Shown here: positions 34,867-41,750 of the stretch, in pieces | Layout: each line of letters starts with the position of its first letter | Numbering within the stretch: position 1 is the first letter of the stretch | Assembly (NCBI GenBank): GCA_004298115.1 | Contig: SCRJ01000093.1 | Coordinates: forward strand, 1 to 41,750 | Length of the DNA stretch: 41,750 nt | Direction: 5' to 3' | DNA from: Acidobacteriota bacterium | Lineage (GTDB): Bacteria; Acidobacteriota; Thermoanaerobaculia; Thermoanaerobaculales; Thermoanaerobaculaceae | Made by a program: the position numbers and the translations under genes | Notes under the pieces: generated by a model | What the model was told of the DNA's origin: nothing | Database searches by the model: none | Seen by the model: the letters and a program-made list of their open reading frames with translations, nothing else

Positions 34867-34930
34867 GCCGAACGCTCCGGCTCAGCGGCGGGCCACGCAG
34901 CGGGCCGTCCGCTGCAACCGGTTGTTATGC
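34867..34930 (-). repeat. attC-like imperfect palindrome at the end of the hsd operon
   Basis: On the minus strand it starts GCATAACAACCGG and ends GAGCGTTCGGC. The outer heptamers GCATAAC and GTTCGGC are partly complementary (GC..AAC / GTT..GC), as are the R boxes of integron attC sites. Inside, TTGCAGCGGACGGCC and GGCCCGCCGCTGAGC form a stem with unpaired bases and a short loop. The TAA stop of the preceding gene (34927-34925) lies within the first heptamer, as is usual in gene cassettes. It does not match the attC core consensus perfectly, and no integrase gene is in the window. Confidence 0.6.
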
Positions 34931-35668
34931 TGCGCTGCTCGTGACATCGGTCTTGTACTCCTCGGAGAGCGCCTTGTGCAGTTCTCGAATGCCGTCGATG
35001 CCCTCGTGCCTATCGAGGGTCTCCACGTCGAAGCCCCGGCAGATGTCGATGTCGCACTGTGACATGTAGTTGCCATGGATGAGCACCTCTCGGATCTGGT
35101 CGGCCGGGTCGGGGTATTCGCGCTCCTCGGGGTCGGCACTTCGGACCAGGAACTCGCCGTAGCAGCGCTCGATGATCGGCTTCGAGTGGGTCTGGATCTC
35201 GTCCACGACGCGCAGGATCTCTGTGATCTTGGTGTCGAGCGCCGCCTGGGTGCTGAAAAAGATGTTGCCGTTGGGGTGGGCGGTGTCGTTGCGGTCGTCC
35301 ACCAGCTTGGCGTAGGTGCCGATACGGCCGTTGTCGCAGGCGATGAGCTTGAGGAAGCGCAGGATGGTGCGCTCGTTGACGGTGCTGAAGACGAAGGGCG
35401 AAGTTGCTTCGAGCAGGTTCTTCTCCACGTCCTTGCTGAAGCCGATCAGTCCCTTGGCGAAGTCGTCGGGCTCCGTCTGCTTGATCTGCCAGATGTTGAA
35501 GTAGACGAAGCTCATCGTGAGCATGTGGTAGGCGAGGAAGGCAAACTGGTACTTGCCGTGGGTGTAGTTGGTATCAAAGGCGTCCCACAGGAAGGCGATG
35601 TACTCCTGCTCCTTCGGGCTCTTGAAGGAGAGCGGGAGGTAGTTGCCAAGTTCCGCGGCTTCTTCCAT
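34925..35668 (-). CDS. HEPN-motif protein in the type I RM operon
   Basis: A 247-residue protein with no signal or membrane segment and a mainly alpha-helical pattern. It contains 'LVDDRNDTAHPNG' with R126-N-D-T-A-H131, which fits the HEPN ribonuclease signature (R-[N/D/H]-x3-H, the Rx4-6H class). Acidic and aromatic helices surround it ('EQEYIAFLWDAFDTNYTHGKYQFAFLAYHMLTMSFVYFNIW'). The N-terminus (MEEAAELGNYLPLSFKSPKEQEYI) and C-terminus (GFDVETLDRHEGIDGIRELHKALSEEYK) match nothing I know. It starts 3 bp after the hsdM-hsdS stop, so it is co-transcribed, and its stop lies in the attC-like element. A role as an RM-guarded RNase, like PrrC/RloC in other type I operons, is inferred; the sequence is not homologous to those as far as I can see. 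Confidence 0.72.
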   Translation of the reverse strand: MEEAAELGNYLPLSFKSPKEQEYIAFLWDAFDTNYTHGKYQFAFLAYHMLTMSFVYFNIWQIKQTEPDDFAKGLIGFSKDVEKNLLEATSPFVFSTVNERTILRFLKLIACDNGRIGTYAKLVDDRNDTAHPNGNIFFSTQAALDTKITEILRVVDEIQTHSKPIIERCYGEFLVRSADPEEREYPDPADQIREVLIHGNYMSQCDIDICRGFDVETLDRHEGIDGIRELHKALSEEYKTDVTSSAA

Positions 35669-35671
35669 GGC

Positions 35672-38200
35672 TCACGCCTCCGCCGCGGCTGGCTTGTCCT
35701 CGCACCAGACGCGGGCGAGGGTGGCCTGGACCTTCTGCTCCATGCGCGCGATGAGCTCGCGGTTGGCGTTGACCAGCGCCTGCTCGGCTTCGAGCTCGGC
35801 GACGATGGCGCGCTGGGTGTCGACGGACGGAAGAGGAATCTTCATCTGCTTCAGGTGCATCGGCCCGAAGTGCCGAATGCTGGAGCCGGTGGCGAGCGCT
35901 TCCCCTTGGTCAAGGAACGCTGGGCTGCCGAGAAAAGTCTCTAGGTACTTTGCGTCAAGGCGGGTGTCTAGAGGCCGAAAGCGTATGAGGCCCGTGTAGA
36001 ACACCGCGCCTTCGGCTTGCGAGGTCACGATCGCCGGCCTGCCGAAGGACGCGCTTGTTGAGACGAGGATGTCGCCAATCTGAAGGCGGAAGTGATTCCA
36101 TTTCTGGGCGACCGTCTCGGGATCAAGGTAGTTGCCACCATCGAGTGTCACAGTGGCACCGCCCAATCCCGCTAGCCTCACAAGTGGTATGCCGTCCTTG
36201 CGAAAGTCCTTGGCGAGGATGCCCGGACCTTCCTGAAATCGTACAACGCTCGCCAACTCCACCAACGGCCAGTCGGGGTTGATGGGGATGTGTGGGCGGT
36301 AGTTGTCCAGGACGGCGCGGGCGCCGTCGATGACCTTCTGGTAGCCCTCGATCTCTGCTACGATCTCACTCTGGACCTGCAACGGTGGGAGGGGGATTTG
36401 GAGCTCGCAGAACTTTGACTTTGATATTTCAGCAAACGTCCCACCCGTTGCCCAAGCCTTCATCGTCGGAACCAGCTTGGTCAGGGCCAACGCGACGTAC
36501 TCTGGCATCGCCCGCTGTGCGTCTTCGATCACGACGCTCTTGAACCCTTGATTCGTCGCGATGGGTGCGCGGTTGATCGCGATGCGACCAATAGTCGCGC
36601 GGGTCGAAACGATTACCGAGTTCGCCGGGATCAGTTTCGCAGATGACTCACGAAGACCCTTCTCTGAGATTGTTCGCTGCGTCATAGTGATGTGGCTGAT
36701 GAAATCGGATGGCGGCAGGTCGGCAAGCGTTGCCCAAGGAATGCCGCCACCCCAATACTCTTCAATGTCGGATTTCGGAGTACCCCCGCCTTCAACGCGA
36801 AAGAGGTTCGAGTCGCCGAGAGAGACTAGAGGGAAGGAGTGATTGTTCGCCGCTCCCTCGCGGTACCGCTCCCCGTAGAGGTTGTAATCGCCATTCCCGG
36901 CGATCCTATCTTTCGGGACGACCAGCCCAAGCGTCAGCTCGAGTCCCTCCACCGATTCCCGCGCCCGCAGGCGGCGCAGGTACTCGGCGATTTCGGCGCG
37001 GGCCTGGGGCAGGTTGTCCTTGTCGATGGGGCGACGCTGGGCGCCGAGGTTGAAGCCGTCGTTCTCGATCTTGAGGAAGGCGATGCTGCTGGTCTGCTTC
37101 GCCAGCGCCTTGTCGAGAATGAGGATCGAGGTCTTGACGCCGGAGTACGGGTTGAACACACCCGCCGGTAGCGAGACCACGGCAACCAGGCAGTCCTCCA
37201 CCAGCATCCTGCGGAGCTGGGTGTAGGCGGTCTGGCTCTGGAAGATGACGCCCTCGGGCACGATGATGCCGGCCCGGCCGCCTGGTTTGAGGTGTTCGGC
37301 CATGTAGTCTACAAAGAGCACCTCGCTGCGCTTGCTCTGCACCGAGAAGCGGTTGTGGGGCCTGATACCGCCCTTCGGTGACATAAAGGGCGGGTTGGCG
37401 AGGATCACGTCGGCGCACTCATTCCAGCGGTCCTCCCGGCTGAGCGTGTCGTACTCAACGATGTGCGGGTCGGTGAAACCGTGCAGGTACATGTTCACCA
37501 GCGACAGGCGCACCATGTCAGGCGAGATGTCGTAGCCCTTGAAGTTGGCGGCCAGCCGTCCGCGCTCGTCGGGGGTCAGCGTGCTGTTGCCGTCTGCGTC
37601 GGTGTTGGTCTTGAGGATGTGCTTGAAGGACGAGATCAGGAAGCCCGCGGTGCCGCAGGCCGGGTCGAGCACGGTGTCGGTCTTCTTTGGATCGATGATG
37701 GCGACGATGAAGTCGATGATATGGCGCGGGGTGCGGAACTGGCCGGCGTCGCCCTGGCTTCCGAGGACCGACAGCAGGTATTCGAAGGCGTCGCCCAGCC
37801 GCTCGGAGTGGTCGTACTCGAACTCGTCGATGACCTTGAGGAACATCCGCAAGGTCTCAGGATCGCGATACGGCAGGAAGGCGTTCTTGAAAATGTCGCG
37901 AAAGAGCGGCGGGATGCCAGGGTTCTCCGGCATTTTGGCGATCGCCTCGGCGTAAAGGTTGAGGGTCTCGTGGCCGCCCAGCCCGGAACGCATGAGCCTC
38001 GCCCAACCGTAGCGGCCGTACTCACCGGCGAAGAACTTCCGCTTGCCGCCCAGCTCTTCGCTCTCCGCGTCCATGTCGTCCATGAACTTGTAAATCAGCG
38101 CGATGGTGATCTGCTCGACCTGGCTCTTGGGGTCGGGCACTTTGCCCACGAGGATGTCGCGAGCGGTGTCGATGCGGCGTTTGGTGCTGGTGTCGAGCAT
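35672..38200 (-). CDS. Type I RM fused modification-specificity protein (HsdM-HsdS)
   Basis: An 842-residue protein joining two normally separate subunits. Residues 1 to about 450 are HsdM: N-terminal helical domain, SAM motif 'VLDPACGTAGFLISSFKHIL' (D179-G183) and N6-adenine catalytic motif 'ILANPPFMSP' (NPPF 269-272). Residues about 455-842 are HsdS with two target-recognition domains. TRD1 starts 'FPLVSLGDSNLFRVEGGGTPKSDIEEYWGGGIPWATLADL' and ends in the conserved helix 'IPLPPLQVQSEIVAEIEGYQKVIDGARAVLDNY'. TRD2 starts 'WPLVELASVVRFQEGPGIL' and ends 'IPLPSVDTQRAIVAELEAEQALVNANRELIARMEQK'. The whole reads as one frame with no internal stop. The TRD-coding part (about 35.7-36.8 kb) is less GC-rich than the rest. 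The ATG has AGAGGAG 4 nt upstream. Motif IV indicates methylation of adenine. Confidence 0.93.
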   Translation of the reverse strand: MLDTSTKRRIDTARDILVGKVPDPKSQVEQITIALIYKFMDDMDAESEELGGKRKFFAGEYGRYGWARLMRSGLGGHETLNLYAEAIAKMPENPGIPPLFRDIFKNAFLPYRDPETLRMFLKVIDEFEYDHSERLGDAFEYLLSVLGSQGDAGQFRTPRHIIDFIVAIIDPKKTDTVLDPACGTAGFLISSFKHILKTNTDADGNSTLTPDERGRLAANFKGYDISPDMVRLSLVNMYLHGFTDPHIVEYDTLSREDRWNECADVILANPPFMSPKGGIRPHNRFSVQSKRSEVLFVDYMAEHLKPGGRAGIIVPEGVIFQSQTAYTQLRRMLVEDCLVAVVSLPAGVFNPYSGVKTSILILDKALAKQTSSIAFLKIENDGFNLGAQRRPIDKDNLPQARAEIAEYLRRLRARESVEGLELTLGLVVPKDRIAGNGDYNLYGERYREGAANNHSFPLVSLGDSNLFRVEGGGTPKSDIEEYWGGGIPWATLADLPPSDFISHITMTQRTISEKGLRESSAKLIPANSVIVSTRATIGRIAINRAPIATNQGFKSVVIEDAQRAMPEYVALALTKLVPTMKAWATGGTFAEISKSKFCELQIPLPPLQVQSEIVAEIEGYQKVIDGARAVLDNYRPHIPINPDWPLVELASVVRFQEGPGILAKDFRKDGIPLVRLAGLGGATVTLDGGNYLDPETVAQKWNHFRLQIGDILVSTSASFGRPAIVTSQAEGAVFYTGLIRFRPLDTRLDAKYLETFLGSPAFLDQGEALATGSSIRHFGPMHLKQMKIPLPSVDTQRAIVAELEAEQALVNANRELIARMEQKVQATLARVWCEDKPAAAEA

Positions 38201-38209
38201 GCTTCTCCT

Positions 38210-40750
38210 CTAGGTGGCGAACTGGTTCAAGGAGACGTAGTCCTTGATGTATTCCGGCACGAGCGTGCGGAACCTCTCGGGCACGGCCCGGAAGTCCCGC
38301 GTCGAGAACACAGGGTTGGTCGCGAGATCGGTAAACTGGCGCTGGTCGATGATGTCGCGCACCCGCCCGCTGGTGATATAGGCCTTGAAGTAGTGCTTGA
38401 TTGCAGGGATCGCCGAGGGCCGCTCGGGGACGTAGTCGGCCACGAACTTGGCGAACTCCTCTTCGAGTAGCTCGTCCTCGCTCTTGAAGCGTGGGATCAG
38501 GCCGAAAACCCTCTCCAGGATCTCGCGCAGGGTGATGCGCCGGTCCACAGCGGCGGCCTTCCGCAACTTGTCGAGGCTGTAATACTCCTCAGGCTTGTCG
38601 AAGACCTCGCGGTTGACGTAGTCGATCACGCGGTCCCATTGGCCTGAATCGACGGCGGCGACGATGACCGGATCTTCGCGGACGGCGTCTTCGAACCGCT
38701 CGAAGAACATGCGGTCGATCTTCATGCCCTCGTGGCCGATTGCCTCTTCTCGAACCGAGGCTAGGATGTCGGCGCCGAGGTGTTCGTACGTTCCCTGGTA
38801 CACGACCGGTCCGGTTCCGCCGCCTTCGTCGCGGGGTCTGCCGGTTGGGCGCGGCAGCTCGAGCACCTCGTCGTAGTTGAACTCGGTCTCGAAGTACTCG
38901 CAGTTGGCGAAGAAGTCCAAGAGCTTGAAAGCGGTCTTTTGGGGGTGGGTGACACCCGCTCGGATCTCGTCGTCGAAGAGCTGCTCCAGGAAGTCGTGCT
39001 TGCGCGTGCCGCGGCCCTTGATCTGGATGAAGTCCGTGGGCGAGAAGATGGGACGGAAGAGGCCCAGGTTGAGGAGGTCCGTGCAGTCGTAGCCTGTGGT
39101 CATCATTCCCACGGTGACGCAGACGCGCGCCTTGCTGGTCTTGTAGGACGGGATGACGTTGCCCGAGCCGAGCAGGTTGTTGTTGGCGAAATTGATGGTG
39201 AACTGCTGGGCATCGAGAACCGAGGAAGTAACCTGCACCGCGAAGTCCGATTGGTACCGGCCCGGGAACATGCGGTCGGCGATCTGGTTGAAGACCTGCG
39301 CCAGCTTGGCGGCATGGTTCTGGCTGACGGCATAGACGATGGACTTGCCGATCTCGCCGCTGACCGGATCGCGCAGGGCGTTGTCGAGGAAGGTCTTGCA
39401 GAAGAGCTGGTTGGTGGCCTCGGAGAAGAAGCGCTTCTCGAACTCCCGCTGCTTGAAGGTTTCCTGCTGGTCCTCACCGGTATCGTCGGTGAAGGAGACG
39501 ATAAAGCCCTCTTCCGAGAGCAGCTCCGTGGTGATCTCCGTCCGGGCGTCCACCACGGTCGGGTTGACCAGGTAGCCGTCCTTCACGCCGTCGAGCAGCG
39601 AGTAGCGGAAGGTGGGCTGGCCGCTTTCGCAACCGAAGGTGCGATAAGTGTCGAGCAGCAAGCGGCGTTCGGCCTCACGCGGGTCGCGGGTGCTCGGGCT
39701 GTCGATGTCGAACCGGCGCAGGTAATTCCGCGGTGTGGCGGTCAGACCCAGCTTGTAGCCGATGAAGTAGTCGAACACCGCGCGGGCGTTGCCGCCGATG
39801 GAACGATGGGCCTCGTCCGAGATCACCAGATCGAAGTCGGTCGGCGAAAAAAGGCGCTGGTACTTGTTGCTGAAAAGAAGCGATTGTACCGTGGTGACGA
39901 CGATTTCGACCCGTCGCCAGTCGTCGCGGTTCTCCTTGTAGATCACCGTCTCGAAGTCGGCGGAAAGCAAGCCAGCAAACGCCTTCCTGGCCTGCTCCTC
40001 CAGCTCCAGCCGGTCCACCAGAAACAGCACCCGTCGGGCGTTACCGGAACGCAGGAACAGCTTCACCACGGCGGCGGCGGTCAGCGTCTTGCCAGTGCCC
40101 GTCGCCATCTCGAGGAGAAAACGATCCTTGCCGTCCCGCACCGCGGCCTGCAACTGATGGATGGCTTTGAGCTGGTAGGGGCGCAGGAACCGCAGGTTAT
40201 TGGTCTGGATGTACGCGGCTCGCTCCGCCTCGTTCTTCCAGCCGGCCTCGGATTGGTACATCGGGCGCTGGGTCAGGACGATGTAGTCGTCGCCGACGCG
40301 CTCGTCGATTAGCCGCTGGGGGTTCGGCATGACCTGTTTGTAGCCAGTGACCGAGTCAGGGGTCGGGAACGAGGTGATGACGTAGGGGTTGCCGCGCTCC
40401 AGATCCCAGAAGTAGTGCAGGTTACCGTTCGAGAGGATGACGAAGCGGCAGCTCTGGGAGCGGGCGTACTTGCGGGCCTGTTCCTTGCCGACAAGGGGGT
40501 TCTTGCCCTCAGCCTTGGCCTCCAGGACGATCAGCGGGAATCCGCGGGCGTCGAGGAGCAGGAAATCGACGAAGCCGCGTGCGGCCTTCTCGAAGTCCTC
40601 GCCAAGCGAGTCGAGCTCCGCGCGCTTGATGGCAACGGTCGGCTCGAGCCGGATGTTTGCAGGGGCGTCACCCTCAGGAAAGAATCGCCAGCCTGCTGTT
40701 TCGAGCAGCCTATTGATCTTGATTCGGGCTGTGGCTTCTTTCCCGGACAC
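38210..40750 (-). CDS. hsdR: Type I restriction enzyme R subunit
   Basis: An 846-residue restriction/translocation subunit. The N-terminal nuclease domain has the PD-(D/E)xK residues D62 ('FVDFLLLDARG') and E77-x-K79 ('VLEAKAEGKNP') with Q91 (QARKYA). The SF2 helicase motor follows: Walker A 'ATGTGKT' (216-222), DEAH 'SDEAHRS' (311-317) and motif III 'LTATP' (336-340), plus 'VGMMTTGYDC' and 'QIKGRGTRKHD' (motifs V-VI). The C-terminal part ('ERPSAIPAIKHYFKAYITSGRVRDIIDQRQFTDLA') resembles the EcoEI-type (type IB) HsdR C-terminal domain. With the M-S protein it cuts unmodified DNA after ATP-driven translocation. The GTG at 40750 has GAGGAG 5 nt upstream. It is the first gene of the operon, 9 bp before hsdM-hsdS. 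Confidence 0.95.
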   Translation of the reverse strand: MSGKEATARIKINRLLETAGWRFFPEGDAPANIRLEPTVAIKRAELDSLGEDFEKAARGFVDFLLLDARGFPLIVLEAKAEGKNPLVGKEQARKYARSQSCRFVILSNGNLHYFWDLERGNPYVITSFPTPDSVTGYKQVMPNPQRLIDERVGDDYIVLTQRPMYQSEAGWKNEAERAAYIQTNNLRFLRPYQLKAIHQLQAAVRDGKDRFLLEMATGTGKTLTAAAVVKLFLRSGNARRVLFLVDRLELEEQARKAFAGLLSADFETVIYKENRDDWRRVEIVVTTVQSLLFSNKYQRLFSPTDFDLVISDEAHRSIGGNARAVFDYFIGYKLGLTATPRNYLRRFDIDSPSTRDPREAERRLLLDTYRTFGCESGQPTFRYSLLDGVKDGYLVNPTVVDARTEITTELLSEEGFIVSFTDDTGEDQQETFKQREFEKRFFSEATNQLFCKTFLDNALRDPVSGEIGKSIVYAVSQNHAAKLAQVFNQIADRMFPGRYQSDFAVQVTSSVLDAQQFTINFANNNLLGSGNVIPSYKTSKARVCVTVGMMTTGYDCTDLLNLGLFRPIFSPTDFIQIKGRGTRKHDFLEQLFDDEIRAGVTHPQKTAFKLLDFFANCEYFETEFNYDEVLELPRPTGRPRDEGGGTGPVVYQGTYEHLGADILASVREEAIGHEGMKIDRMFFERFEDAVREDPVIVAAVDSGQWDRVIDYVNREVFDKPEEYYSLDKLRKAAAVDRRITLREILERVFGLIPRFKSEDELLEEEFAKFVADYVPERPSAIPAIKHYFKAYITSGRVRDIIDQRQFTDLATNPVFSTRDFRAVPERFRTLVPEYIKDYVSLNQFAT

Positions 40751-40891: not shown

Positions 40892-41722
40892 TCACTTCCC
40901 CTTCCAGACGGCCAGGAGGGCCATCGTAGCCTCCAAGCTGAACTTCCGGTAGAACTTGATGAAATCGATGTAGAGAACAAAGGCACCCAACGCGCTCATG
41001 ACCGCGAGAGAGGTGCCGACACGCCAAGGAACGAGACCAAAGACCGAACCAGTCACTGCAAGCCAGAACAGGAGAACACCCTCCAAGACGAGCGTCCGCG
41101 TGAAGCCATACAGTGCGACATAGTTCTGCATCTTCGGGACGTGAGCGGGAGCGTTCTCCAGCGCGTAGTGATACACCAACCGGAAGAAGTCACGCTCCTC
41201 GTCGGGCTTGGCCAGAGGCAACCCGCTGAGGTCGTACATCGTTGATGCGAACCCGTTCACCTTCTGCTTTATACAGTGGCGAAGGAGGGGATCAAGCGGC
41301 TTGGCGTAGAGAGGACGAAACCCGAGCCACGCCGCTATGCCCTCGATGCCCGACGCTGGGGCCAGGAGAACGGCCGTGAAGATTCTGATTGCGGCACGAG
41401 CCTTGCGCGCTTTCAGGGGACAGAGGAATCGGCCCGGGCGGTTACCGAGCAAATATCGCGATGGATATCCGAGTGTCCAGATCGCGTATCTCTCGACCGT
41501 GATGGACGAAATGAAGCTAAGAAGGTGGCCAACGACGTAGGCCAGGAGCACGAGCGGAACGAAAAACTGCACCTTTCCGAGAACATCAAATGGTACGAGG
41601 AGAGCGGACCAGCTCACGGGCTGCTGCGCAATCCGCCGAAGGACAACTACTGCACACAGAAAGACCGCCCCTGGGACTAGGTAACCAAGAAAATCATAGA
41701 GGGAAAAAGGGTTTTGCTTCAT
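40892..41722 (-). CDS. Membrane protein of unknown function next to the RM operon
   Basis: A 276-residue protein starting 'MKQNPFSLYDFLGYLVPGAVFLCAVVVLRRI', an N-terminal helix with a 'YDFLGYLVPG' motif. Further helices are predicted at 'VQFFVPLVLLAYVVGHLLSFISSITVERYAIW', 'LVLEGVLLFWLAVTGSVFGLVPW' and 'AVMSALGAFVLYIDFIKFYRKF'. The middle is a soluble, charged region ('KPDEERDFFRLVYHYALENAPAHVPKMQNYVALYGF'). I do not recognise a named family. The ATG at 41722 is preferred because it gives the compact N-terminus; an ATG at 41737 (15 nt upstream) is possible. GC content is clearly below that of the left half of the window. It lies 141 bp upstream of hsdR on the same strand and could belong to the same acquired region; whether its N-terminus is complete depends on the start choice near the right edge. 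Confidence 0.7.
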   Translation of the reverse strand: MKQNPFSLYDFLGYLVPGAVFLCAVVVLRRIAQQPVSWSALLVPFDVLGKVQFFVPLVLLAYVVGHLLSFISSITVERYAIWTLGYPSRYLLGNRPGRFLCPLKARKARAAIRIFTAVLLAPASGIEGIAAWLGFRPLYAKPLDPLLRHCIKQKVNGFASTMYDLSGLPLAKPDEERDFFRLVYHYALENAPAHVPKMQNYVALYGFTRTLVLEGVLLFWLAVTGSVFGLVPWRVGTSLAVMSALGAFVLYIDFIKFYRKFSLEATMALLAVWKGK

Positions 41723-41750
41723 ACGTTCATCACCCATCGAGACAATTCAC

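Follow-up and report, generated by a model that had tools for sequence, protein, structure and literature searches.

The third gene of a type I restriction-modification (R-M) operon in a 41,750-nucleotide stretch of Acidobacteriota DNA (hereafter the window) probably encodes a stand-alone HEPN endoribonuclease, which would act as a second-line RNase in the manner of PrrC and be restrained by the fused HsdM-HsdS (M-S) protein of the same operon. We estimate the probability of this reading at roughly 55%. PrrC, itself an RNase of the HEPN type, has its gene in a type I hsd operon; the R-M enzyme keeps it silent until phage attack sets it free (PMC3710099, PMC2610378). The gene, here designated hepn, carries a strictly conserved HEPN motif at the expected place of an all-helical predicted fold, and intact copies of it were found only on the 3' side of hsdM/hsdS.

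Operon and genomic setting of hepn

The operon lies on the minus strand in the order hsdR, fused hsdM-hsdS and hepn, with gaps of 9 and 3 nt between the genes. The first gene, hsdR (38210-40750), encodes an 846-aa type I restriction/translocase subunit with an HSDR_N nuclease region and a ResIII/SF2 helicase. The second, hsdMS (35672-38200), encodes an 842-aa protein in which domain matches identified N6_Mtase at residues 133-451 and two Methylase_S stretches. The presence of an HsdR translocase/nuclease, an N6 methylase and a two-stretch specificity region thus identified a type I R-M system, with M and S joined in a single protein. The hepn open reading frame (34925-35668, minus strand) starts with ATG 3 nt past the stop codon of hsdMS and encodes 247 aa, and the open reading frames confirmed the coordinates and gene order given in the initial annotation, which had described a 247-aa protein as the third product of the hsd operon. 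The gene is flanked on its other side by a phospholipid methyltransferase-type gene; as neither of the two neighbors in the window is an MNT nucleotidyltransferase antitoxin gene, the locus does not correspond to a HEPN-MNT toxin-antitoxin pair.

The G+C contents of the three operon genes were 61-64%, as against 65-78% elsewhere in the window. The search for hepn in eight congeners was negative in all of them, and of 396 genomes sampled from the phylum, the window's own was the only one in which the gene was detected. The low G+C content of the operon, together with this absence from the congeners and the rest of the sampled phylum, indicated that hepn was very probably acquired horizontally.

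A further open reading frame located 5' of hsdR (40892-41737, minus strand) encodes a 281-aa membrane protein with weak similarity to Csx27 (E 1e-4 to 1e-3), an accessory protein of type VI-B CRISPR systems, and with a strong match to phrog_12528 (E 1e-44), a phrog of unknown function. It was ruled out as a component of the system, as a homologue was found in 0 of the 62 hepn loci described below.

Conserved motif, predicted fold and family assignment

The hepn product contains the motif R126-N127-D-T-A-H131 (codons of the predicted catalytic Arg and His at 35291-35293 and 35276-35278 on the minus strand, respectively), in which the N following R occupies the polar position of the HEPN Rx4-6H motif. 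Random shuffling of the window protein generated Rx4-6H in 65% of cases and R-N-x3-H in 1.4%, and the former value ruled out the motif alone as proof of a HEPN domain. The motif was considered meaningful on the basis of its invariance across homologues. An alignment of 45 full-length sequences, consisting of the window protein and 44 homologues 45-81% identical to it, contained 29 invariant columns; R126, N127 and H131 were conserved in 45/45 sequences, R126 being the sole invariant Arg, and H48 was the only invariant His besides H131. The initial annotation had recognized the match to the HEPN signature and named conservation of R126 and H131 in homologues as the check on it, and both points held. 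A distant relative, 30% identical (locus L084), carries RNDMAH. Mean column identity was 72% in the HEPN core, defined by predicted models and column identity as residues 15-180 (35129-35626), compared with 64% over the whole protein, and the C-terminal helical tail (residues 181-247; 34925-35128) was less conserved, with its end disordered in the model.

AlphaFold2 single-chain modeling, one of the checks proposed at the outset, gave confident models of the full protein (pLDDT 92.5) and of the core alone (pLDDT 91.5), and did not clearly indicate an unrelated fold. The model is all-helical, with helices at residues 18-36, 40-65, 113-129 and 141-176 and an insert (67-109) separating the second and third core helices. 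R126 is located at the end of the third helix and H131 in the next loop, followed by the long helix 141-176. This layout agrees with the description of the HEPN domain in PMC3710099.

The Foldseek search of the PDB with the full-length model was swamped by helical matches, mostly meaningless apart from 2q00 (probability 0.44), which is a HEPN protein (PMC3710099), and the core was therefore re-modeled alone. The core model matched the HEPN protein AbiA (8oz7) with a probability of 0.77, a large and mostly helical protein whose matched part is not given in the Foldseek output, and the HEPN protein 2hsb with 0.35, while the remaining PDB matches among those listed had probabilities of 0.16 or lower. 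The E-values of the HEPN matches ranged from 1.8 to 4.3, with no match at E <= 0.001. A sequence search of the PDB detected no relative of the protein.

Among curated families, profile comparison favored HEPN_RiboL-PSP (PF18735), with its AbiD/AbiF-like relatives, as the nearest. The window protein scored 14.5 bits, under the curated cut-off of 28.4, and 29 of the 45 family members matched PF18735 (best E 3e-4). Alignment by hhalign matched the two motifs position by position at P 4.6e-4, whereas reversed controls gave 0.4-0.6; its probability was just 33%, and the similarity extended over only some 50 residues surrounding the motif. When the profile of the hepn family was searched against 385 genomes of another class, only a known member and one other protein (E 4e-4) were detected, and the latter turned out to be a HEPN_RiboL-PSP protein (E 2e-19) encoded beside a GmrSD_N gene. 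The hepn product shares with HEPN_RiboL-PSP the RNxxAH motif and the long helix following it, but differs in its score below the cut-off, the lack of a fusion to endoRNase L-PSP and its different operon partners. Membership in PF18735 or PF18737 was rejected because the scores were under the cut-offs. Kinship with DUF4145 (PF13643), a HEPN-like domain in longer HsdR proteins, was weak and likewise not retained (hhalign P 0.01, probability 4%; R of the motif missing from most sampled members), and DUF86/HepT (PF01934) showed no profile similarity.

The HMMs of Pfam, NCBIfam and PADLOC contained none covering the family, in line with the initial description of the protein as being of unknown family. 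PHROGs gave only a marginal match, and an example member, WP_101754819.1, is annotated as 'hypothetical protein'. The same three HMM collections revealed no ATPase/NTPase motif or second domain in the 247 aa, and the earlier remark that the protein lacks an ATPase motif and is much shorter than RloC was thus upheld.

These comparisons of sequences and models indicate with high confidence that the hepn product belongs to the HEPN superfamily, and it is likely, with its conserved R/N/H residues, to be a catalytically active, metal-independent RNase. The alternative that it adopts an unrelated all-helical fold, in which the R..H pair was conserved for other reasons, would accord with the high Foldseek E-values, the Pfam score under the cut-off and the frequent occurrence of Rx4-6H by chance. 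We regard it as very improbable, since every clearly elevated PDB match was a HEPN protein, the profile alignment brought the motifs into register and its reversed controls were clean, the sole outside match of the family profile was a HEPN protein, and the motif occupies the helix end where HEPN domains carry it.

Linkage of hepn to hsdM/hsdS and its variable neighbors

The homologue search, performed with one genome per species, collected 62 loci from Proteobacteria, Nitrospirota, Verrucomicrobiota, Planctomycetota, Spirochaetes and other groups. hsdM and/or hsdS was located upstream of hepn in 53 of them, including L037, L038 and L041. Five others start at a contig edge, and in L012 an Mrr-like gene lies upstream of hepn, with the contig ending beyond it. 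The three loci in which hepn occurs without hsd genes (L044, L055 and L062) all encode N-terminally truncated proteins. Five further contigs, namely three IMG/VR contigs, a Paracoccus plasmid and the unverified gut scaffold L084, showed the same gene order. Intact hepn was accordingly found only 3' of hsdM/hsdS, in 58 loci from many phyla and down to 30% identity. HEPN distances also tracked those of HsdM (Mantel r 0.69) and HsdR (r 0.60), with p 1e-4 by permutation; this correlation of sequence distances supports co-inheritance, not contact.

The most divergent case was informative about the partner of hepn. On L084 (3871-7586), the gene of a single 976-aa protein, in which an HSDR_N nuclease region is fused to methylase and specificity regions, precedes the 30%-identical HEPN gene. 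As the order was kept although the partner M is just 26% identical and a helicase gene was not seen on the scaffold, the constant and essential partner looks like M-S and not the motor, as judged from this one case. No further relatives of this branch turned up when viral contigs, phages and plasmids were searched. The flanks of L084 contain two open reading frames that appear RhuM-like by eye, along with a serine recombinase gene.

The reverse searches, starting from the hsd genes, gave a different picture. A related hsdR was present in 9 of 396 genomes of the window's phylum, and of the seven related hsd operons that could be read, only that of the window contained hepn. Downstream of the six others stood HNH or GmrSD_N genes, DarT with a macro-domain gene, or nothing recognized. 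A related hsdR was also present on 56 plasmids (52 from E. coli), among which only the Paracoccus plasmid carried hepn; in one E. coli plasmid, a TrlF-family ATPase gene takes the place of hepn. These searches ruled out that hepn belongs universally to this hsd type. It seems that hepn needs M-S and that M-S does not need hepn, and such one-way linkage fits an effector dependent on the R-M system. That most of the close hsd operons lack hepn, so that the R-M enzyme does not depend on it, was at the same time counted against an RNase guarded by this enzyme.

A TrlF-like ATPase encoded on an E. coli conjugative plasmid (L146:11679-14540) was 90% identical to the products of genes standing 3' of hepn in Novispirillum and in an Anaerolinea MAG (L048:3233-6130 and L053:9686-12583), reflecting either recent transfer between phyla or contamination of a MAG.

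The same distribution bears on the possibility that HEPN is a non-suicidal accessory, tuning the restriction enzyme or the operon mRNA without killing, for instance by delaying restriction until methylation is complete. That hepn consistently lies at, or close to, the 3' end of the operon and is co-inherited with M-S would suit such a role, and PMC3710099 describes some HEPN domains as non-catalytic binders. According to the same paper, however, it is HEPN domains lacking the motif that are thought to be non-catalytic, and the R-N-H triplet is strictly conserved here; the gene is moreover absent from most of the sampled related hsd operons. We consider this role distinctly unlikely.

hepn abuts hsdS in 28 of 50 loci and is separated from it by a 120-nt gap in one, and in the other 21 loci the two genes stand 0.8-3 kb apart, with other genes in between, many of which run straight into hepn. 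The initial annotation had proposed to search whether homologues always sit 3' of fused hsdM-hsdS genes. Intact hepn was found only 3' of hsdM/hsdS, but direct contact with hsdS is not required, and many related hsd operons do without the gene. The inserted genes encode PHP/SMC ATPases, AAA_13 proteins (PDC-S06, RloC-like), Mrr (PDC-S02), putAbiC, ABC-three-component proteins (PDC-M68), SIR2-HerA, DUF4917 (PDC-S21) and reverse transcriptase; L005, L008, L036 and L051 also share a protein that matches no Pfam family. Known or candidate defence genes of at least eight unrelated classes thus occur in the slot (for example, L002:5964-8594, L017:6374-8980, L023:6261-8990 and L042:7604-8989), and the AAA_13 genes of L007, L017, L019 and L061 stand next to hepn as cargo of their own. 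Defence genes embedded in type I operons were already known (PMC12255303), also from guilt-by-embedding work as far as it is cited there. The present comparison adds the finding that the slot has a constant far edge, formed by hepn.

Several other genes were observed around these operons. A second slot at the hsdR-hsdM junction contains a recurrent related protein in L005, L008, L020, L028, L042, L049, L058 and L060, with a KilA-N domain in that of L005. A Fic-related protein occupies this junction in L150, and a Fic protein is encoded downstream of hepn in L005. Directly 3' of hepn in L015 (9696-12920) lies a gene for a 1075-aa reverse-transcriptase-like protein (PF00078, E 6e-5), possibly an Abi-type RT. 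A protein of about 370-395 aa with a NucS_C-like nuclease region is encoded 3' of hepn in L026:5944-7125, L032:9663-10787, L039:9675-10784 and L059:9624-10808, and is possibly another accessory gene of the hepn-hsd system.

Decay affected hepn in some loci and hsd genes in others. hepn has decayed beside intact hsdR and hsdM in six loci (L036, L037, L041, L042, L049 and L058), which would be expected if the effector were costly and dispensable to the system, with the reservation that decay observed in MAGs may be sequencing error in part. Decay of hepn showed no clear difference by eye with the presence of cargo. Conversely, hepn is intact beside damaged hsdM and/or hsdR in L004, L008, L016 and L020, L004 being cut by an apparent IS21-type transposase pair. 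Loci of the latter kind should not persist if HEPN killed cells that lack the enzyme; all four are from MAGs and may be unexpressed, silent or misassembled.

These four loci agree with another possibility, in which hepn encodes an autonomous abortive-infection RNase resembling AbiD, AbiF or AbiU2. Such a protein would sense phage by itself and sit in the 3' slot for co-expression or co-transfer, with R-M neither holding nor triggering it. The 3' region is certainly a general defence slot, with TrlF, HNH, GmrSD_N and DarTG in operons of the same core, and unrelated cargo is found in the 21 hepn loci as well. The position and presence of the other slot genes vary, however, while across the 58 loci intact hepn was not found away from hsdM/hsdS and its product diverged in step with HsdM and HsdR. 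A self-sufficient module would be expected to occur alone too, and we thus regard this explanation as rather unlikely.

Proposed restraint by the M-S protein and relation to known systems

For the reading preferred here, an RNase restrained by M-S, the following course can be proposed. HEPN would be translated from the hsdRMS mRNA close behind hsdMS, which would allow it to associate with the fused M-S protein, or with the assembling R2M2S holoenzyme, and to be kept inactive there. Once a phage put the enzyme out of action or titrated it, by an anti-restriction protein, overwhelming unmodified DNA or degradation of subunits, HEPN would be freed or activated and the R126/H131 sites would pair in a dimer. 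The dimer would then cut tRNA or another essential RNA, and the infected cell would be stopped. Control of HEPN by the R-M complex is in our judgment somewhat better than an even bet. As HEPN has no NTPase, sensing would have to reside in the M-S complex.

The proposed system resembles PrrC/EcoprrI, an anticodon nuclease with a type Ic R-M system, in having the gene of a HEPN-type RNase within a type I hsd operon. It differs in that PrrC has an N-terminal ABC-NTPase domain, whereas the hepn product is a single 247-aa unit, and in the fusion of hsdM and hsdS; PrrC is a tRNA anticodon nuclease, while the target RNA of HEPN is only putative. RloC is likewise a HEPN RNase, and the genes of some RloC-like proteins accompany those of R-M systems (PMC3710099), but it is a large Rad50-like ATPase-HEPN protein. 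The toxic defence gene inserted after hsdS in the hsd operon of an E. coli type I system (PMC12255303) is similar in position, but there it belongs to an embedded toxin-antitoxin pair, and here a single HEPN gene is present with no antitoxin gene.

Among the papers found on HEPN genes in hsd operons, only the 2013 survey (PMC3710099) deals directly with the subject. It linked 16 HEPN clades to R-M, including AbiU2 and AbiJ solos, and already proposed a PrrC-like role. The hepn gene shares with these the R-M neighborhood and the proposed logic, and differs in its uncatalogued family, its constant partner, the fused hsdM-hsdS, and an operon end shared with a variable cargo slot. The initial annotation had raised a 'new minimal RM-guarded RNase'. 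The family is new in that Pfam, NCBIfam and PADLOC do not catalogue it, and it could be one of the 16 clades; the kind is not, coupling of HEPN with R-M having been put forward in 2013 (PMC3710099).

More tentatively, hepn may represent an ATPase-free suicide RNase guarded by R-M, in which the M-S protein doubles as the restriction core and as the antitoxin and trigger of a one-domain HEPN; we consider this possible, with the balance tilted against it. If true, an M-S-guarded HEPN could have seeded an operon whose hsdS-hepn junction gathers defence genes. PrrC is the textbook case of an RNase under the control of a type I restriction enzyme, and its own ATPase complicates how the restraint works. 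A one-domain HEPN tied to fused M-S would be a much simpler model of a DNA-recognition complex leashing an RNase. As hepn marks the end of a slot rich in known and candidate defence genes, it also helps to find new ones.
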